The notes under the pieces are model-generated. The model ran no database searches. It saw only the letters and a program-made list of their open reading frames with translations, and had not been told where the DNA came from. Positions 6,604-43,614 of a DNA stretch of 43,614 bases are shown piece by piece (position 1 is the stretch's first letter; each line of letters begins with the position of its first letter). Position numbers and translations under genes: made by a program. The stretch covers positions 1 to 43,614 of the forward strand of contig JAFSIZ010000118.1 of NCBI GenBank assembly GCA_017439555.1, written 5' to 3'. The stretch comes from Oscillospiraceae bacterium (GTDB lineage Bacteria > Bacillota > Clostridia > Oscillospirales > JAAYXM01).

Positions 6604-8742
6604 TTATTCTTCGTCTTTCTTCTCTTCAGCCTCGCGCTTTGCAAGCTCTGCATATGCATCCTTACGTGAGAAGTTCGTTCTGCCCTTATCGTCAATACCC
6701 ATAAACTTGACCCATGTCATATCACCGACGCTGAGGATATCCTCAACCTTTTCGACTCTGCGGTTTTCAAGCTTTGAGATGTGAACCATACCATCCTTGC
6801 CCGGAGCGATTTCAACGAATGCACCGATCGGGATGATGCGGACAACCTTTCCATAATAGAGCTCACCGACAACCGGGTCGAGAACGATTGTCTCGATGAC
6901 CTTCTTAGCGGCCTTGCAGGCTTCGCCATCGATAGCGGAGATATAGACGTTTCCATCGTCTTCGATATCAATCTTTGCGCCTGTGTCAGCAACGATCTTC
7001 TGGATAACGCTTCCGCCCTTGCCGATAACATCGCGGATCTTCTCCGGATCGATTGTCATGTGGAGCATCTTCGGAGCATATTTTGAAAGCTCGTCACGCG
7101 GTGTCGGGATGCACGGGAGCATAATCTCATCGAGGATGCGATATCTTGCATCACGTGTTATTGTGAGAGCACTGCGGATGATTTCAGGTGTGAGGCCGTC
7201 AATCTTGAGGTCCATCTGGATAGCTGTGATACCTGTCTTTGTACCTGCTACCTTGAAGTCCATATCGCCGTAGAAATCTTCTACGCCCTGGATATCGATG
7301 AATGTGAGCCATTTGTCCTCGTCTGTTACGAGACCGCAGGAGATACCTGCAACAGGTGCCTTTATCGGAACGCCTGCATCCATAAGTGCAAGAGTCGATC
7401 CGCAGATGGAGCCCTGAGATGTTGAGCCGTTGGAGCTCAGAACCTCGGAAACGAGGCGGATGCTATAGGGGAACTCTTCCTCGCTCGGGATAACCGGCTC
7501 AAGTGCGCGCTCTGCAAGAGCACCGTGGCCGATTTCACGTCTGCCCGGGCCGCGGCTCGGACGTGCCTCACCGACGGAATAGGACGGGAAGTTGTAGTGG
7601 TGGATATATCTCTTGAACTCTTCCTCATAGATTGTGTCGAGCTTCTGCTGATCAGCGATTGTGCCGAGAGTTGCAACTGTGAGAACCTGTGTCTGTCCAC
7701 GTGTGAACATACCGCTTCCGTGTGTTCTCGGGAGAACACCGACCTCTGCTGCGAGCGGACGGACTTCATCGAGCGCACGGCCGTCAACACGCTTGCCTTC
7801 GAGGAGCCACTGACGGACAACTATCTTCTGAAGCTTATAGATGCACTCGCCGAGGAACTGCTCGATATCCGGATATTTCTCTGAATATTCTGCAATGAGC
7901 TCATCAGAAAGCACCTTGAAGCGCTTGTCGCGGACTGTCTTGTCGTCTGTATCCATACCTGCACGCACGCGATCGAGGATGTTGGCCTTGAGCTCTTTGA
8001 AAAGCTCATCATTAAACGGAACGTGCTCATATTCAAACTTCGGAAGGCCGATTTCAGCCTGAATGCCGCTGATGAACTCGACAACCTTCTTGATCTCCTC
8101 GTGTGCGAGCATGATAGCATCAAACATAGCATCGTCTGCAATCTGATCTGCACCTGCTTCGATCATAACAACCTTCTGAGCGCTGCCTGCAACTGTGAGG
8201 TTGAGTGTGCTCTTCTCGCGCTCTGCGCTTGTCGGGTTGACAACAAACTTGCCGTCAACACAGCCGATGGAAACGCCTGCAATCGGGCCGTTCCACGGAA
8301 TGTCGGAAATTGAGAGAGCAATTGATGTGCCGATCATACCTGCGATTTCCGGTGCACAATCGTTATCAACAGAAAGGACTGTGATGGAAACTGCAACATC
8401 GTTGCGGAGATCCTTCGGGAAAAGCGGACGGATCGGGCGGTCGATAAGGCGTGATGTGAGGATTGCGCGCTCACTTGGGCGGCCCTCACGGCGCATAAAG
8501 CTGCCGGGGATGCGGCCTACTGCATAGAGACGCTCTTCGAAATCAACTGCAAGCGGGAAGAAATCGATGCCTGCACGCGGCTTTTCGGAAGCTGTTGCTG
8601 TAACGAGAACAGCTGTTTCACCATAGCGGACAAGGCATGATCCGTTTGCGAGGCCGGCCATCTTACCGGTTTCAACAACAAGCTTACGGCCTGCAAACTC
8701 TGTTTCGTACACTTTGTACTTTGAGAAAACCATTTCTTTCAT
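6604..8742 (-). CDS. pnp: Polyribonucleotide nucleotidyltransferase (PNPase)
   Basis: This 712-residue enzyme degrades RNA 3' to 5' by phosphorolysis and acts as a trimer, often within the degradosome. Two RNase PH cores are visible. The first contains RREGRPSERAILTSRLIDRP (about residues 84-103). The second contains FTRGQTQ near 348, NGSTSQGSICG near 438 and GDMDFKVAGT near 492. A KH domain with VIGKGGSVIQKI lies near 563-574 and an S1 domain from about 625, followed by an acidic Lys/Glu tail. Length is standard. The start MKEMVF is chosen because AAGGAGC lies eight bases upstream; the internal MVF start lacks this. It lies just downstream of rpsO, the widespread rpsO-pnp order, with a long hairpin between them. 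Confidence 0.97.
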   Translation of the reverse strand: MKEMVFSKYKVYETEFAGRKLVVETGKMAGLANGSCLVRYGETAVLVTATASEKPRAGIDFFPLAVDFEERLYAVGRIPGSFMRREGRPSERAILTSRLIDRPIRPLFPKDLRNDVAVSITVLSVDNDCAPEIAGMIGTSIALSISDIPWNGPIAGVSIGCVDGKFVVNPTSAEREKSTLNLTVAGSAQKVVMIEAGADQIADDAMFDAIMLAHEEIKKVVEFISGIQAEIGLPKFEYEHVPFNDELFKELKANILDRVRAGMDTDDKTVRDKRFKVLSDELIAEYSEKYPDIEQFLGECIYKLQKIVVRQWLLEGKRVDGRALDEVRPLAAEVGVLPRTHGSGMFTRGQTQVLTVATLGTIADQQKLDTIYEEEFKRYIHHYNFPSYSVGEARPSRGPGRREIGHGALAERALEPVIPSEEEFPYSIRLVSEVLSSNGSTSQGSICGSTLALMDAGVPIKAPVAGISCGLVTDEDKWLTFIDIQGVEDFYGDMDFKVAGTKTGITAIQMDLKIDGLTPEIIRSALTITRDARYRILDEIMLPCIPTPRDELSKYAPKMLHMTIDPEKIRDVIGKGGSVIQKIVADTGAKIDIEDDGNVYISAIDGEACKAAKKVIETIVLDPVVGELYYGKVVRIIPIGAFVEIAPGKDGMVHISKLENRRVEKVEDILSVGDMTWVKFMGIDDKGRTNFSRKDAYAELAKREAEEKKDEE

Positions 8743-19875: not shown

Positions 19876-22800
19876 ATGAAGAAATTAAAAATTGCATTTT
19901 TTGCTGCCATTGCGCTGTGTGCAATCCTGCTTTATGGTTCGTCCGCAAGTGCCGCAATTGTCGATTCGGGCATGTGTGGTGAGAACGTCTCGTGGGTATT
20001 CGATGACAGCGGATGCCTCACAATTTCGGGAACCGGCGCGATGGAGGATTATGAAAACGAAACGGATCAGCCGTGGTATGATTATAAGTATCCGGGTTTA
20101 AATACCGCGATACAAAAATTAGTCATCGAAGAAGGTATAACGAGAATAGGAAACAATGCTTTCCGCTATTGCGGTCAGATTCTCGATGTGTCTCTTCCAA
20201 ATACTCTTGAAAGAATCGGAGATAGTGCATTTTACGGTGTAAGTCAGCTTTCGGAAATTAAGTTCCCGTCTTCATTGAGAATAATAGGTGCAAATGCCTT
20301 CGAAAAATGCTATGGTTTTACAAAAATTGAAATTCCATATGGCGTTGAAGAAGTCGGAAACGGAGCATTTGCAAGCATTGGCTATGGCTTGAAAGAAGTT
20401 TCTGTGTCGGAAGGCAATATAGGAGCGAGCGCATTTTCAAATAACTACGGGCTTGAAAAGGTTACTCTTGGTGAAGATGTCGTAAGTATTTCGGAAATGG
20501 CATTTTTCGGATGTGAGTCGATAAAAGAAATAACCATACCTGAGTCTGTTGATTATATAGGCGCGGGCGCTTTCAAGGGTTGCTCTGCGCTTGAGAAAAT
20601 TTCTTTTTCGAGCGGCACATATATAGATGAATCGGCATTTGATGTGGGTTCAACCTCCGAAACTCCGACAGGATGCGACGTTTATATACCCGATATGCAG
20701 GTGTGGTATGATATGAGCTTTGCAAATGCAAAAGCTAATCCGCTTTATGCAGGCGGAAAAATCTATGTAGACGGAGCTCTTTTGACCGAGCTTGTTGTGC
20801 CGTCTGATATTTGGGGGATAAATTATTATAGCTTTGCGAATTGTGCGGAACTTAAAATCGTGACGTTGGAAAACGGCGTCGGTAAGATTTGCGACGGTGC
20901 TTTTAGCGGATGCAAGGATTTAGAGAAGATTATAATTCCCGAGACTGTTGCGTGGGTAGGAAACGACGCTTTTGCAAACTGCACAAAGCTGACGGTGTAC
21001 GGAACGCCATATAGTGCAGCAGAGGCATATTGCACTATAAACTCCATCCCGTTTGTCGGGGCTGCAAGTGAAGGAATTGTATCTTCGGGAACCTGTGGTG
21101 ATGGTCTTGCGTGGGCGCTCAATGATGACGGTGTGTTGATAATTTACGGCACAGGAAAAATGTATGATTATAACTTTGCAGATCCTGCGCCTTGGGATTC
21201 GTCAAAAGAAAGTATAAAATCAGTTATAATTAAGTTCGGTGTAACATATATCGGCAAGTGCGCATTTGAAAACTGTGCGAATATTGAAGAGACTACAATT
21301 CCCAAAGGTGTAGCAAGCATCGGAAAAAATGCGTTCCGTGGTTGCACAAATCTCACGATTTACGGTTATTGGCACAGCACGGCGCAAACATATGCAAATG
21401 AAAATTCAATCGCGTTCAGTCTGCTTAGCGAAAATGGGATCATGGCTTCGGGAGCTTGTGGTGATAAGCTTTCATGGATGCTTGATGGAGAAGGCAGACT
21501 GACAGTTTATGGCATGGGTAGGATGACAAATTATACAGCTGAAAATCCTGCGCCATGGCATTCAATCCGTGACAGAATAAAGATAGTCTGGTTGGACAAC
21601 GGAGTAATGAGTATCGGAGATTATGCATTCGATTCTTGCTTGAATCTTACGAGATTGGTTGTGCCGTCAAGCTTATCCAATATCGGTGTGAATGCATTTT
21701 GGGGCTGCGCAGGGCTTGAGGGGCGAGGATTTCTTGAAAGCACGTCTTCATCGGATGAAGAATGGTCGAGAGTTTTTATTGAAAGCGGAAATGAACTGCT
21801 CATAGAAAAAAGTCGGTATAAATTCACACCATACACCGGTTACATTGCATCTTCTGAAAGAGTATATGATGCGGATAAAAATGAATATTATCTGCAAATG
21901 ACACTTATTTGTGCGGATGGAAAATTCGCAGCAAGAACCACCACGGACATCAGGGATTTTGACAGTGAGACTTATGATTTCTCGGGAGCGGTAGGCGCGC
22001 TTGGAAAGAATCAACCTTTTGCGGTGGGAACGTTTGCTGAGTTTACAGTTAACTATGAAGGCGAAGTTGAAAGGCTTGACAATCGCAATACGAAAAGAAT
22101 TTCAAAAAGTGTTGAATTTACTGGGGACACTGCAAACAGGGGATTATACCTTGTAAATGTAACAGCTAATCGCAACGGCGTTCTCTATTTCATCAACGCG
22201 AATGTTGAAATATCGGGGGATGCAACTGCATACGAGAATGCGATAGCAAATGCGTTTTCCTTGAATTTTGGCGAAAACGGCTATGAGATTGTCAGCGTTT
22301 ACGGTAATGGATATGTAGGCAGAACTATTGTAAAACTTCCATCTCGTGGTGATACACTTGTTGATGGAACGGGAAACGCTATCATCAAAGTTGATGAGAA
22401 CGGTGAAGTTGTAAAGGTGTTCTCATTTGTTGACGGATTCACACTTGAAGAACGTGAAGAAGTAATCGAATATTCATTTGCTCAATCCGTGCAGATAGGT
22501 CTTATCGAGCCGTGGTTCTTAAAGGCTAATGCCCGTGTCTACACCGATGAAAATCCGATAAATATTGACTATTCAACGCTCATTGATTATGGCGCATATT
22601 TCATCCGCGCAAGCGAGCTTGAAAACGTGAATGCAACGCCCGAGACCTTGACCGCTGAAGATATCATAAATGACGCGGATTCAATAAAATGCTCAAAGAA
22701 GAGCGGAACGGCGACGGTTGACGGAAGCTATATCACGGCAAGCTACGACAAAGGGCTTTATACATATGAAATGGGAGATTCGATCTTCGTTCTCTTCTAT

Positions 22801-23565
22801 ATTGAGGATGCGAACGGAATTCAATATCTGCCGATTCGTGAGCGCAATATGAAAGAGCTTCTGGAAAAAAGAAAGAACGATACCGAAAACTTTGCCAATG
22901 CTTTAGAGCGAAACGTATATACCGCGATGGATAAGCTTGAGCTTGATATCGGAGCATACAGAGCACAGTTTGCTAAAATTGAAGAACTGCCGAAACAGGC
23001 GGCGCCGATGCTTTCGGAGTATGTTGAGAAAAACGGAGCGTTTGAAGACGAAACGGTAAAGAACTACACATTTAAAAATTCCGTTCAGTTGATTCTTGTC
23101 GAGCCTTGGGGGCTCAAAGTCAATTCAAGAGTTTTTGACGATGCAAATCCGATAAATATCAACTATGACAGTGTCGAGGAATTCGGAGCAATCATATATT
23201 ATGATACCGAAGGAAACGTTGATTCAATGACTGCGGAAGAGCTCAGAACAAAGAGCGATGCATATGTGTTCAGTAGTAAAAACGGAGATGCAGCTGTTGA
23301 CGGAAGCTACATCACGGCGCTTTATAACAAAGATATATTCACTTATCAGCTCGACAGCAACGCCTATGTAATGTTTTATATAAAGGATGCAGACGGCTAT
23401 CACTACGGTGACGTAAAGATCCGCAATGCATATGAGCTTGCAAAGGAAAGAGCGCAGGATACATCGGGCAACTTCGGTGAAAAGGAAAAAACGGTCTATC
23501 AGGATATGGTGGCAATGTACGAGGCTGTCAAGGCATATCGGGACGACTATTTTGGAAATAATTGA
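19876..23565 (+). CDS. Large BspA-like leucine-rich-repeat surface protein
   Basis: This is a 1229-residue secreted protein. A signal peptide spans residues 1-27. Residues 30-620 are LRR_5/BspA repeats (I.NNAF..C, L..I..P.....IG..AF). Three copies of a ~65-residue module beginning SG.CG..(L/V).W.(L/F) start near residues 31, 399 and 521. A beta-rich region follows at about 640-840. A ~170-residue module then occurs twice: about 865-1035 (SVQIGLIEPWFLKANARVY) and about 1063-1225 (SVQLILVEPWGLKVNSRVF). No SLH, LPXTG or choline-binding anchor is seen, so the attachment route is unknown. AGGGAG lies 11 bases before the start. A 43-residue peptide gene follows 25 bases downstream and is probably cotranscribed. 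BspA-type repeats usually mediate adhesion. Confidence 0.88.
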   Translation: MKKLKIAFFAAIALCAILLYGSSASAAIVDSGMCGENVSWVFDDSGCLTISGTGAMEDYENETDQPWYDYKYPGLNTAIQKLVIEEGITRIGNNAFRYCGQILDVSLPNTLERIGDSAFYGVSQLSEIKFPSSLRIIGANAFEKCYGFTKIEIPYGVEEVGNGAFASIGYGLKEVSVSEGNIGASAFSNNYGLEKVTLGEDVVSISEMAFFGCESIKEITIPESVDYIGAGAFKGCSALEKISFSSGTYIDESAFDVGSTSETPTGCDVYIPDMQVWYDMSFANAKANPLYAGGKIYVDGALLTELVVPSDIWGINYYSFANCAELKIVTLENGVGKICDGAFSGCKDLEKIIIPETVAWVGNDAFANCTKLTVYGTPYSAAEAYCTINSIPFVGAASEGIVSSGTCGDGLAWALNDDGVLIIYGTGKMYDYNFADPAPWDSSKESIKSVIIKFGVTYIGKCAFENCANIEETTIPKGVASIGKNAFRGCTNLTIYGYWHSTAQTYANENSIAFSLLSENGIMASGACGDKLSWMLDGEGRLTVYGMGRMTNYTAENPAPWHSIRDRIKIVWLDNGVMSIGDYAFDSCLNLTRLVVPSSLSNIGVNAFWGCAGLEGRGFLESTSSSDEEWSRVFIESGNELLIEKSRYKFTPYTGYIASSERVYDADKNEYYLQMTLICADGKFAARTTTDIRDFDSETYDFSGAVGALGKNQPFAVGTFAEFTVNYEGEVERLDNRNTKRISKSVEFTGDTANRGLYLVNVTANRNGVLYFINANVEISGDATAYENAIANAFSLNFGENGYEIVSVYGNGYVGRTIVKLPSRGDTLVDGTGNAIIKVDENGEVVKVFSFVDGFTLEEREEVIEYSFAQSVQIGLIEPWFLKANARVYTDENPINIDYSTLIDYGAYFIRASELENVNATPETLTAEDIINDADSIKCSKKSGTATVDGSYITASYDKGLYTYEMGDSIFVLFYIEDANGIQYLPIRERNMKELLEKRKNDTENFANALERNVYTAMDKLELDIGAYRAQFAKIEELPKQAAPMLSEYVEKNGAFEDETVKNYTFKNSVQLILVEPWGLKVNSRVFDDANPININYDSVEEFGAIIYYDTEGNVDSMTAEELRTKSDAYVFSSKNGDAAVDGSYITALYNKDIFTYQLDSNAYVMFYIKDADGYHYGDVKIRNAYELAKERAQDTSGNFGEKEKTVYQDMVAMYEAVKAYRDDYFGNN

Positions 23566-23590
23566 AAATGAGGAAAGGAGAAAATAAAAA

Positions 23591-23722
23591 ATGAAGTATG
23601 AAGCACCAAAAATGCAGATGATTGAAATTTCTGCAAACGATGTCATTATGACAAGCGGAATCACCGGCGGCAATGCGACGGGCAATGTCGGCGGAGGCGG
23701 CGCTCTCGAAGATCCGGAATAA
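23591..23722 (+). CDS. 43-residue peptide, MKY..P...I..DVI.TS family, copy 1
   Basis: This small ORF has AAAGGAG ten bases upstream. It opens MKYEAPKMQMIEISANDVIM, then TSG and a Gly-rich tail ending ALEDPE. There is no signal peptide and no Cys. It follows the BspA-like gene by 25 bases and precedes a shared terminator. A sister of 49 residues at 42997-43146 shares the N-terminal block and the same position behind another surface-protein gene. The Tyr-x-x-Pro plus later Thr pattern recalls leader peptides bound by RRE domains (for example lasso precursors), but no maturation enzyme is encoded nearby. Function unknown. Confidence 0.7.
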   Translation: MKYEAPKMQMIEISANDVIMTSGITGGNATGNVGGGGALEDPE

Positions 23723-23731
23723 TGATAAATG

Positions 23732-23771
23732 AAACCGAGCTGCGGCAAATTTTGCCACAGCTCGGTTTTTC
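23732..23771 (+). terminator. Terminator of the BspA-peptide unit
   Basis: An 11-base stem (23732-23742 with 23758-23768) with an inner GGCAAA/TTTGCC extension ends in five T. It lies ten bases past the peptide stop. Confidence 0.8.
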
Positions 23772-42944: not shown

Positions 42945-42979
42945 GAAAAAGGGCTGGCACAAATGTGTCAGCCCTTTGG
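42945..42979 (-). terminator. Terminator of the second surface-protein/peptide unit
   Basis: AAAGGGCTGNCACA pairs with TGTGTCAGCCCTTT; on the minus strand it is followed by TTTTTC. It lies about 20 bases past the peptide stop. Confidence 0.75.
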
Positions 42980-42996: not shown

Positions 42997-43146
42997 TTAG
43001 ATGTCTGCGTTTGTAGTATCGTCAGCGCTTGTTACAATCGGCAATCTATTGTTACCAGGGTCACCCGTGTCACCGCCAGCTGATGTTGTAATAACATCCA
43101 TAGTATTGAGTGTAATTATCTCAATTTCAGGCTTTGCGTATTTCAT
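42997..43146 (-). CDS. 49-residue peptide, MKY..P...I..DVI.TS family, copy 2
   Basis: This small ORF has AAAGGAG about ten bases upstream. It reads MKYAKPEIEIITLNTMDVIT, then TSAGGDTGDPGNN and a hydrophilic Asp/Thr tail. It shares MKY, Pro6, the alternating hydrophobic strand, DVI at positions 17-19 and TS at 21-22 with the peptide at 23591-23722. It lies 35 bases behind a surface-protein gene, the same arrangement as copy 1. There is no signal peptide, Cys or known domain. Confidence 0.7.
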   Translation of the reverse strand: MKYAKPEIEIITLNTMDVITTSAGGDTGDPGNNRLPIVTSADDTTNADI

Positions 43147-43181
43147 CACTATTCTCTCCTTTCATCTTATTTTTTAATTTA

Positions 43182-43614
43182 TCAATGGAAGTAGTTATAT
43201 GCTGATGTTGCAAACTTCGCCAATTCATCTGAAACCTTTGCCTGTGCTGTTCCAACAGTTTGTGCAATGTAACTTTCAATGCTGAAATCCACACTTCCGT
43301 ATTCACTTCCATCTGCATTGTATACAACCAGATTTACCATTTGTCGCATATCCGCAACAACAAGCGAAGTGATATCAACACCGATATGGCCAGACACTTC
43401 AGTGTAGAAATCGGCACCTTCAATTCTTTCTGCTTTTTCTTCTCCATAGTGATCAGTAAACGATGCAATCGCATACATTGAACCTGAATCCACTCCATTA
43501 GCGCTAAAGTATGCTGTTAAGAGGATGTTATTCTCAAGAACCAACTGAGTACCATAGAAGTTTGTGCCTTTCACCGTCTTGTCAACAACAGTAACTTCTG
43601 TTGTGGCAAGCGCT
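43182..43614 (-). CDS. C-terminal part of a second surface protein (5' end outside window)
   Basis: About 143 residues are visible; the frame is open to the window edge, so the start is missing. NGVDSGSMYAIASF and FYTEVSGHIGVDITSLVVAD are beta-rich. The end, LVVYNADGSEYGSVDFSIES then a helical VSDELAKFATSAYNYFH, matches a C-terminal module I know from large Clostridia surface proteins (..YNADG...SIESY...L...A..YF). It is followed by the second MKY..P peptide gene, like the BspA gene at 19876-23565. Confidence 0.7.
   Translation of the reverse strand, partial: ALATTEVTVVDKTVKGTNFYGTQLVLENNILLTAYFSANGVDSGSMYAIASFTDHYGEEKAERIEGADFYTEVSGHIGVDITSLVVADMRQMVNLVVYNADGSEYGSVDFSIESYIAQTVGTAQAKVSDELAKFATSAYNYFH

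Follow-up and report, generated by a model that had tools for sequence, protein, structure and literature searches.

The window analysed here, a 43,614-nt stretch of Oscillospiraceae DNA, contains two short genes for related peptides. The first (P0001, MKYEAPKMQMIEISANDVIMTSGITGGNATGNVGGGGALEDPE, 43 aa) lies at 23591–23722 on the plus strand and comprises a leader (M1–I19), a conserved Ser22 and a Gly/Asp/Glu tail. The second (P0002, MKYAKPEIEIITLNTMDVITTSAGGDTGDPGNNRLPIVTSADDTTNADI, 49 aa), assigned from the sequence and from its genome copies, lies at 42997–43146 and is open only on the minus strand; the initial annotation had placed it correctly and left the strand unstated. As claimed there, M1, K2, Y3, P6, D17-V18-I19 and T21-S22 are common to both peptides. 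Direct sequence inspection also bears out the AAAGGAG Shine-Dalgarno sites, at 23574–23580 (plus) and 43156–43162 (minus), and the terminators, with an intrinsic-terminator-like hairpin and T run 3' of peptide 1 (23733–23770, plus) and a terminator-like hairpin, again followed by T, 3' of peptide 2 (42946–42978, minus).

Each peptide gene closely follows a surface-type gene, with gaps from the upstream stop of 25 nt (P0001) and 35 nt (P0002), in agreement with the proximity first noted. Partner 1 (19876–23565, plus), a secreted protein of 1229 aa, carries LRR_5 repeats of the BspA type along with a signal peptide. Its C-terminal domain is present as an internal copy (22408–22968, plus) and as an extreme C-terminal copy (22963–23562, plus) modelled as a beta-sandwich with a C-terminal helix (mean pLDDT 84). 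A fold search with this domain gave nothing better than E 3e-3, returning generic beta-sandwiches and unrelated proteins. The tandem duplication (22408–23562) recurs in the paralogous partners on contigs C169 and C187. Of partner 2 the window holds the C-terminal 143 aa, with a domain of type B (43182–43614, minus); its signal peptide cannot be seen because the contig ends at 43614 and cuts the gene.

Peptide family and its secreted partners

In the window's genome, which is 84% complete in 200 contigs, seven peptide copies occur, with four close paralogues on C41, C169, C187 and C42 and the remaining copies on C13, the minus strand of C41, and C75. Each of the four paralogues lies 19–25 nt 3' of a secreted protein gene, and the four partners end in a common domain (...AYRDD[YF]F.NN). 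Across 22 leader codons and five homologues, pooled pN/pS is 0.28 rather than near 1, which indicates purifying selection on the leader and hence selection on the encoded protein. The leader pattern matches twice in the window versus 0.035 times expected in first-order Markov windows, a figure that is indicative only, the pattern having been composed after the family was seen. Profile searches recovered the peptide well beyond this genome, in 24 of 59 relatives, 80 of 295 genomes of the order and 46 of 341 genomes of the class; a single genome can hold as many as 21 matches. At just 43 and 49 codons the two genes could be suspected of being chance ORFs with an accidental resemblance; the five further genome copies, the pN/pS value, the matches in the order and the genes' own ribosome sites make this explanation negligible, as the initial annotation had expected, and the tiny peptide gene is a real gene.

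The consensus of 72 distinct peptides reads M-K-x-Y-x-x-P-[E]-[IL]-E-[IV]...D-[IV]-[IV]-T-T-S, after which the sequence varies, with abundant Gly, Asp, Glu, Asn and Pro and few Lys/Arg (mean 0.6 per tail); this fixed leader with its variable tail supports the leader–core layout originally proposed. By an automatic rule, 66/72 peptides have [YFW]xxP and 66/72 carry a Ser three positions beyond D-[IV]-[IV], several of the exceptions being register errors of the rule. Scans of the peptides against Pfam and NCBIfam gave no relevant match, leaving the family without a covering model, and a PDB profile search gave no match. The strings EDIITTS and EDVITTS were absent from the open literature searched, and the precursors of a ruminal lasso survey differ from this family (PMC7533575).

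One subfamily, MKNYTEPKLEIV...IEDGGRASLN.F, was seen at L007/L012 (G000:C75:7943), L013, L014, L015 and L017. It has a TATAAT-like stretch upstream, no directly adjacent partner, and strongly conserved DNA downstream, gtgacgatgcgtctgcgatgcaggcagacacattgtgcata, for which an Rfam search gave no match.

Placement relative to secreted protein genes is not random: a signal-peptide-like start, scored by a simple hydropathy rule, is present in 38 of 44 complete upstream partners versus 51 of 169 background pairs (30%). Conservation outside the genome, the pN/pS value and this placement each run counter to the refuting outcomes that the initial annotation had set. Partners with such a start have no further TM segment, and peptide–partner gaps range from −8 to 48 nt. 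By the calling rule, 19/72 peptides lack a complete gene directly upstream, and a further 6 have a complete upstream gene without a signal peptide, some of these cases being calling errors. The partner association is thus strong, not universal.

The partners' N-terminal parts vary, including LRR_5, Big_2, List_Bact repeats, subtilase, cohesin and GH16. LRR_5 occurs in only 8/48 partners; the description of the partner as BspA-like is accordingly right for partner 1 and does not extend to the family, and we rejected the idea that the coupling is simply one to LRR_5 proteins. What recurs lies at the extreme C-termini of the 48 partners, where group A (18/48) and group B (16/48) end 0–14 residues from the stop. 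A search of 59 genomes for the window-type C-terminal domain found five proteins (four in the window's genome, one in G001), and a peptide gene comes after each of them.

Candidate modification enzymes in the same genomes

Four enzyme families accompany the peptide. Among the 295 genomes of the order, an HprK-like kinase was present in 70 of 80 peptide-positive and 9 of 215 peptide-negative genomes, an odds ratio of 160 that is inflated by the relatedness of the genomes; the association is kept within families (CMH chi2 22.8, with negatives under-listed) and appears in a smaller set as well (43/47 vs 1/28). In peptide-positive versus peptide-negative genomes, a discrete RRE (PqqD, PF05402) occurs in 42/46 vs 6/28, a SipW-like peptidase (SpI) in 39/47 vs 2/28 and an NTP-transferase (NTP_transf_5, PF14907) in 39/47 vs 5/28. 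Ten peptide-positive genomes lack a full-length kinase, and some of the peptide matches there may be false; one of the ten, G110, lacks all enzymes tested. Conversely, G026, G044, G047 and G020 are peptide-negative genomes with an RRE and/or NTP-transferase and with distant or no kinase matches; these may represent true lasso or other phospho-RiPP clusters.

For the kinase model (mean pLDDT 96), HprK/P structures gave the best Foldseek E-value and probability, at low TM-scores (about 0.3), and PEPCK, which has the same fold, ranks next. In the SpI, a Ser and a His 39 residues apart are invariant and a GDN motif offers an Asp; the SpI profile matches signal peptidases in the PDB. Among the RREs, Asn is kept in 37/40 and Asp in 34/40, in columns mapped by an LN...D-x-x-x-F pattern rather than by alignment to LppB, the RRE protein of the system compared below; the RRE of the window's genome has both. 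Together with YxxP in 66/72 peptides, this conservation supports the earlier suggestion of an RRE-recognised YxxP leader.

RRE neighbourhoods recurrently hold an HprK-like kinase, RRE and SpI, often NTP_transf_5 and sometimes an ABC exporter. At six loci from several families (L071, L083, L087, L114, L125 and L127) the peptide gene, as a rule preceded by that of a secreted protein, adjoins kinase, RRE and SpI. A kinase-profile scan of named genome records found, at the 80 best loci and within 3 kb of the kinase on the same strand, an RRE in 55, an SpI in 44 and a peptide in 18. Record titles at such loci include Ruminococcus flavefaciens Y1, Faecalibacterium prausnitzii APC923/51-1 and Blautia. 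An ABC exporter adjoins the kinase/RRE in L071 (Pfam) and, by a motif rule, in 17 of the 80 named loci.

The RREs looked for elsewhere in peptide-carrying genomes are thus commonly present, and the window's own genome encodes one at C108:11968–12159 (E 4.7e-15). An SpI adjoins it (C108:12171–12602), and an HprK-like kinase lies at C98:13784–14470 (E 6.4e-73); an NTP-transferase was not found in this genome, which is 84% complete. Given these positions, the enzymes of the window's genome must work in trans. In the window's genus generally, the kinase and the RRE/SpI pair occupy separate contigs, neither of them shared with the peptides. At L211, L212 and L213 of this genus (kinase L211:6776–7474), the kinase follows genes that resemble larE, larB and larC, as judged by eye from the sequences, away from RRE/SpI.

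Proposed pathway and competing readings

We conclude, with a probability of roughly 0.82, that the peptide is a phospho-RiPP precursor of machinery of the type that makes linear polyphosphorylated peptides (LPPs), acting in trans. The family is widespread and unannotated, and its dispersed precursors, coupled to surface proteins, probably give rise to phospho-RiPPs. Weighing against this reading are the partial match of the leader to the LPP consensus, the unlinked enzymes of this genus, the NTP-transferase not found in the window's genome, the ten peptide-positive genomes without a full-length kinase and the peptides without a secreted partner. From the sequence comparisons we infer the following chemistry, export and function. 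The discrete RRE encoded on C108 would bind the YxxP leader, the HprK-like kinase on C98 would phosphorylate the conserved Ser22, and the SpI next to the RRE would cut, most likely after DVI, and so remove the leader of 19 residues to give MTS*GITGGNATGNVGGGGALEDPE. The acidic core would then leave the cell, with one enzyme set serving all dispersed precursors. In the least certain step, the core might pair with the partner's C-terminal domain or share the partner's anchor. Since the precursor is translated right after a large secreted protein, its core would most likely be an extracellular companion of that partner; we hold the specific proposal, that the mature core is a ligand or anchor-pairing motif for the partner's C-terminal domain, at somewhat under even odds.

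Core-like strings also occur in other proteins. In six genomes, 6–7-residue core strings recur exactly in the C-terminal 70 residues of secreted or membrane-attached proteins of the same genome, whose genes lie near that of the peptide or of the kinase. Matches of 6-mers occurred in 6 of 6159 same-genome pairs versus 19 of 439731 other-genome pairs, and 7-mer matches numbered 4 versus 3; the matches make a strong lead that falls short of proof, because the pairs are not independent and the tails are compositionally biased. The strings include EGDNGTGWG (G093), DNDIADPWG (G007), ELPFVPA (L300) and PYETPED (L252). SLH domains were confirmed in the anchor proteins of G007, G008 and G093; the G008 protein carries two GDNDxxDPWG-type copies, and the G007 protein also has such a motif. 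The window's own genome yielded no anchor with a core string.

Disordered C-termini that echo a same-genome peptide core were noted in proteins at L173:6305–7192, L216:10544–11599, L181:9409–10548 and L087:4330–4959, and in L300 (ending at 6946), L252 (6980) and L250 (6889). All seven proteins have SLH domains or are lipoprotein-like or TM proteins, and all are encoded near kinase/peptide genes.

A tentative extension that draws on these matches, and which we regard as possible and rather doubtful, is RiPP-based surface assembly, where the core would be a short address motif present both on the phospho-RiPP, released next to each secreted C-terminal-domain protein, and on wall or membrane anchors (SLH, lipoprotein-like and TM proteins) from genes near the kinase. 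Phosphorylation would then set how the C-terminal domain and the motif pair, and this pairing would determine the site at which secreted proteins are displayed.

The main competitor within a RiPP framework differs from our preferred explanation on function only. The product would be a phospho-RiPP signal or antimicrobial, with the operon partner as receptor, immunity or delivery protein, a reading suited to tails that differ between copies and to a compound class whose members are commonly signals or toxins. Many precursors per genome (up to 21 matches), large extracellular partners as diverse as LRR, Big_2, subtilase, GH16 and cohesin proteins, linear, acidic, Gly-rich cores unlike most antimicrobials, and core sequences that recur in wall-anchored proteins make it unlikely. 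Improbable to a greater degree is an unmodified cytosolic helper for chaperoning, secretion or translation coupling, with the kinase/RRE/SpI cassette co-occurring separately. Tight coupling to secreted proteins (gaps of −8 to 48 nt) and a peptide without a signal peptide would suit such a helper; against it stand peptide genes inside kinase–RRE–SpI clusters in several families, the kinase odds ratio of 160, and a leader whose RRE-binding motif is matched by RREs that keep the residues reading it. The hypervariable tail behind a fixed leader, typical of RiPP precursors, also speaks against a helper.

The initial annotation leaned towards a lasso-type peptide, and a lasso or other macrocyclic RiPP could explain the YxxP leader, the discrete PqqD-type RRE and the Gly that many members have behind the TS motif. 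Yet the lasso B2 protease (PF13471, Transglut_core3) exceeded the cut-off in 1 of 74 genomes and not in the window's genome, and the leader peptidase adjoining the RRE resembles SpI rather than a cysteine protease. An Asp/Glu at core position 7–9 that could close a ring is inconstant in the 72 peptides and absent from P0001. With the B2 protease essentially absent, the lasso reading is largely refuted and retains a very small probability.

RiPP research usually deals with single clusters, each yielding a secreted natural product. In this family, a shared modification cassette seems to handle many scattered precursors, most tied to different large extracellular proteins, and co-transcription of most peptide copies with a large surface protein suggests a previously unseen way to fit out the cell surface. 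If true, the phospho-RiPP explanation would give the LPP family a testable cell-surface role and would account for a numerous class of small genes that lack annotation in gut Clostridia. The setting includes common gut genera (Ruminococcus flavefaciens, Faecalibacterium prausnitzii and Blautia records), and the finding is weightier than the single-window view implied.

Relation to known systems

The window's partner is one of the BspA-like LRR_5 surface proteins; the commoner element here, however, is the combination of C-terminal domain and peptide gene, not the LRR. Phosphorylated lasso peptides of the paeninodin type share a YxxP/WxxP leader, a discrete RRE, an HprK kinase and a nucleotidyltransferase with the present system, but their B2 protease is essentially absent here, and paeninodin RREs have Gly/Gln where those described here have Asn/Asp.

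The closest likeness is to the LPP RiPPs of the Paenibacillus alginolyticus lppAKBSDN cluster, whose set comprises the RRE LppB, the kinase LppK, the SipW-like leader peptidase LppS, LppN and LppD (PMC13381572, Nat Commun 2026). LppK phosphorylates core Ser3 several times, and the leader motif is YxxPxVLxHQxIxFETxxS (PMC13381572); the report's text contains no occurrence of "clostridi" (PMC13381572). Both systems have a discrete RRE, an HprK-like kinase and a SipW-like SpI, and here an NTP-transferase accompanies them in most peptide-positive genomes and an ABC exporter in some loci. Precursors in both are short, with YxxP in the leader, a core that varies and a Ser near the phosphosite position. 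The initial annotation had pointed to a later Thr; this is not the key residue, and the most conserved one is the nearly invariant Ser after that Thr, near the position that LppK phosphorylates (PMC13381572). The RRE Asn/Asp appear equivalent to LppB N33/D70, which contact the leader Pro and Tyr. The SpI Ser–His spacing of 39 is that of LppS S29/H68, and its His–Asp spacing is shorter than H68–D93, leaving the Asp assignment less sure.

The leaders differ in detail. Only YxxP, a hydrophobic residue two positions after Pro and a spaced Ser are in common; HQxIxFET is absent, the C-terminal leader motif here is D[IV][IV]xxS, not FETxxS, and the distance from Tyr to Ser is one residue longer. With this Ser counted as Ser3, D[IV][IV] closes the leader and the leader Tyr falls at −17 instead of −16. 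We therefore class the system as an LPP-like variant rather than a filed member, because the FET motif is absent and no NTP-transferase turned up in the genome of the window. Genome organization differs as well. LPP precursors number 1–3 per cluster, often in capsule loci, whereas those described here, in a family spread widely through Clostridia in which kinase and RRE/SpI can be unlinked, are dispersed and multi-copy and lie mostly in secreted-protein operons. Dispersed precursors, mostly behind secreted proteins with recurrent C-terminal domains, and core strings that reappear in SLH or lipoprotein tails near the kinase are the new aspects that this family adds.
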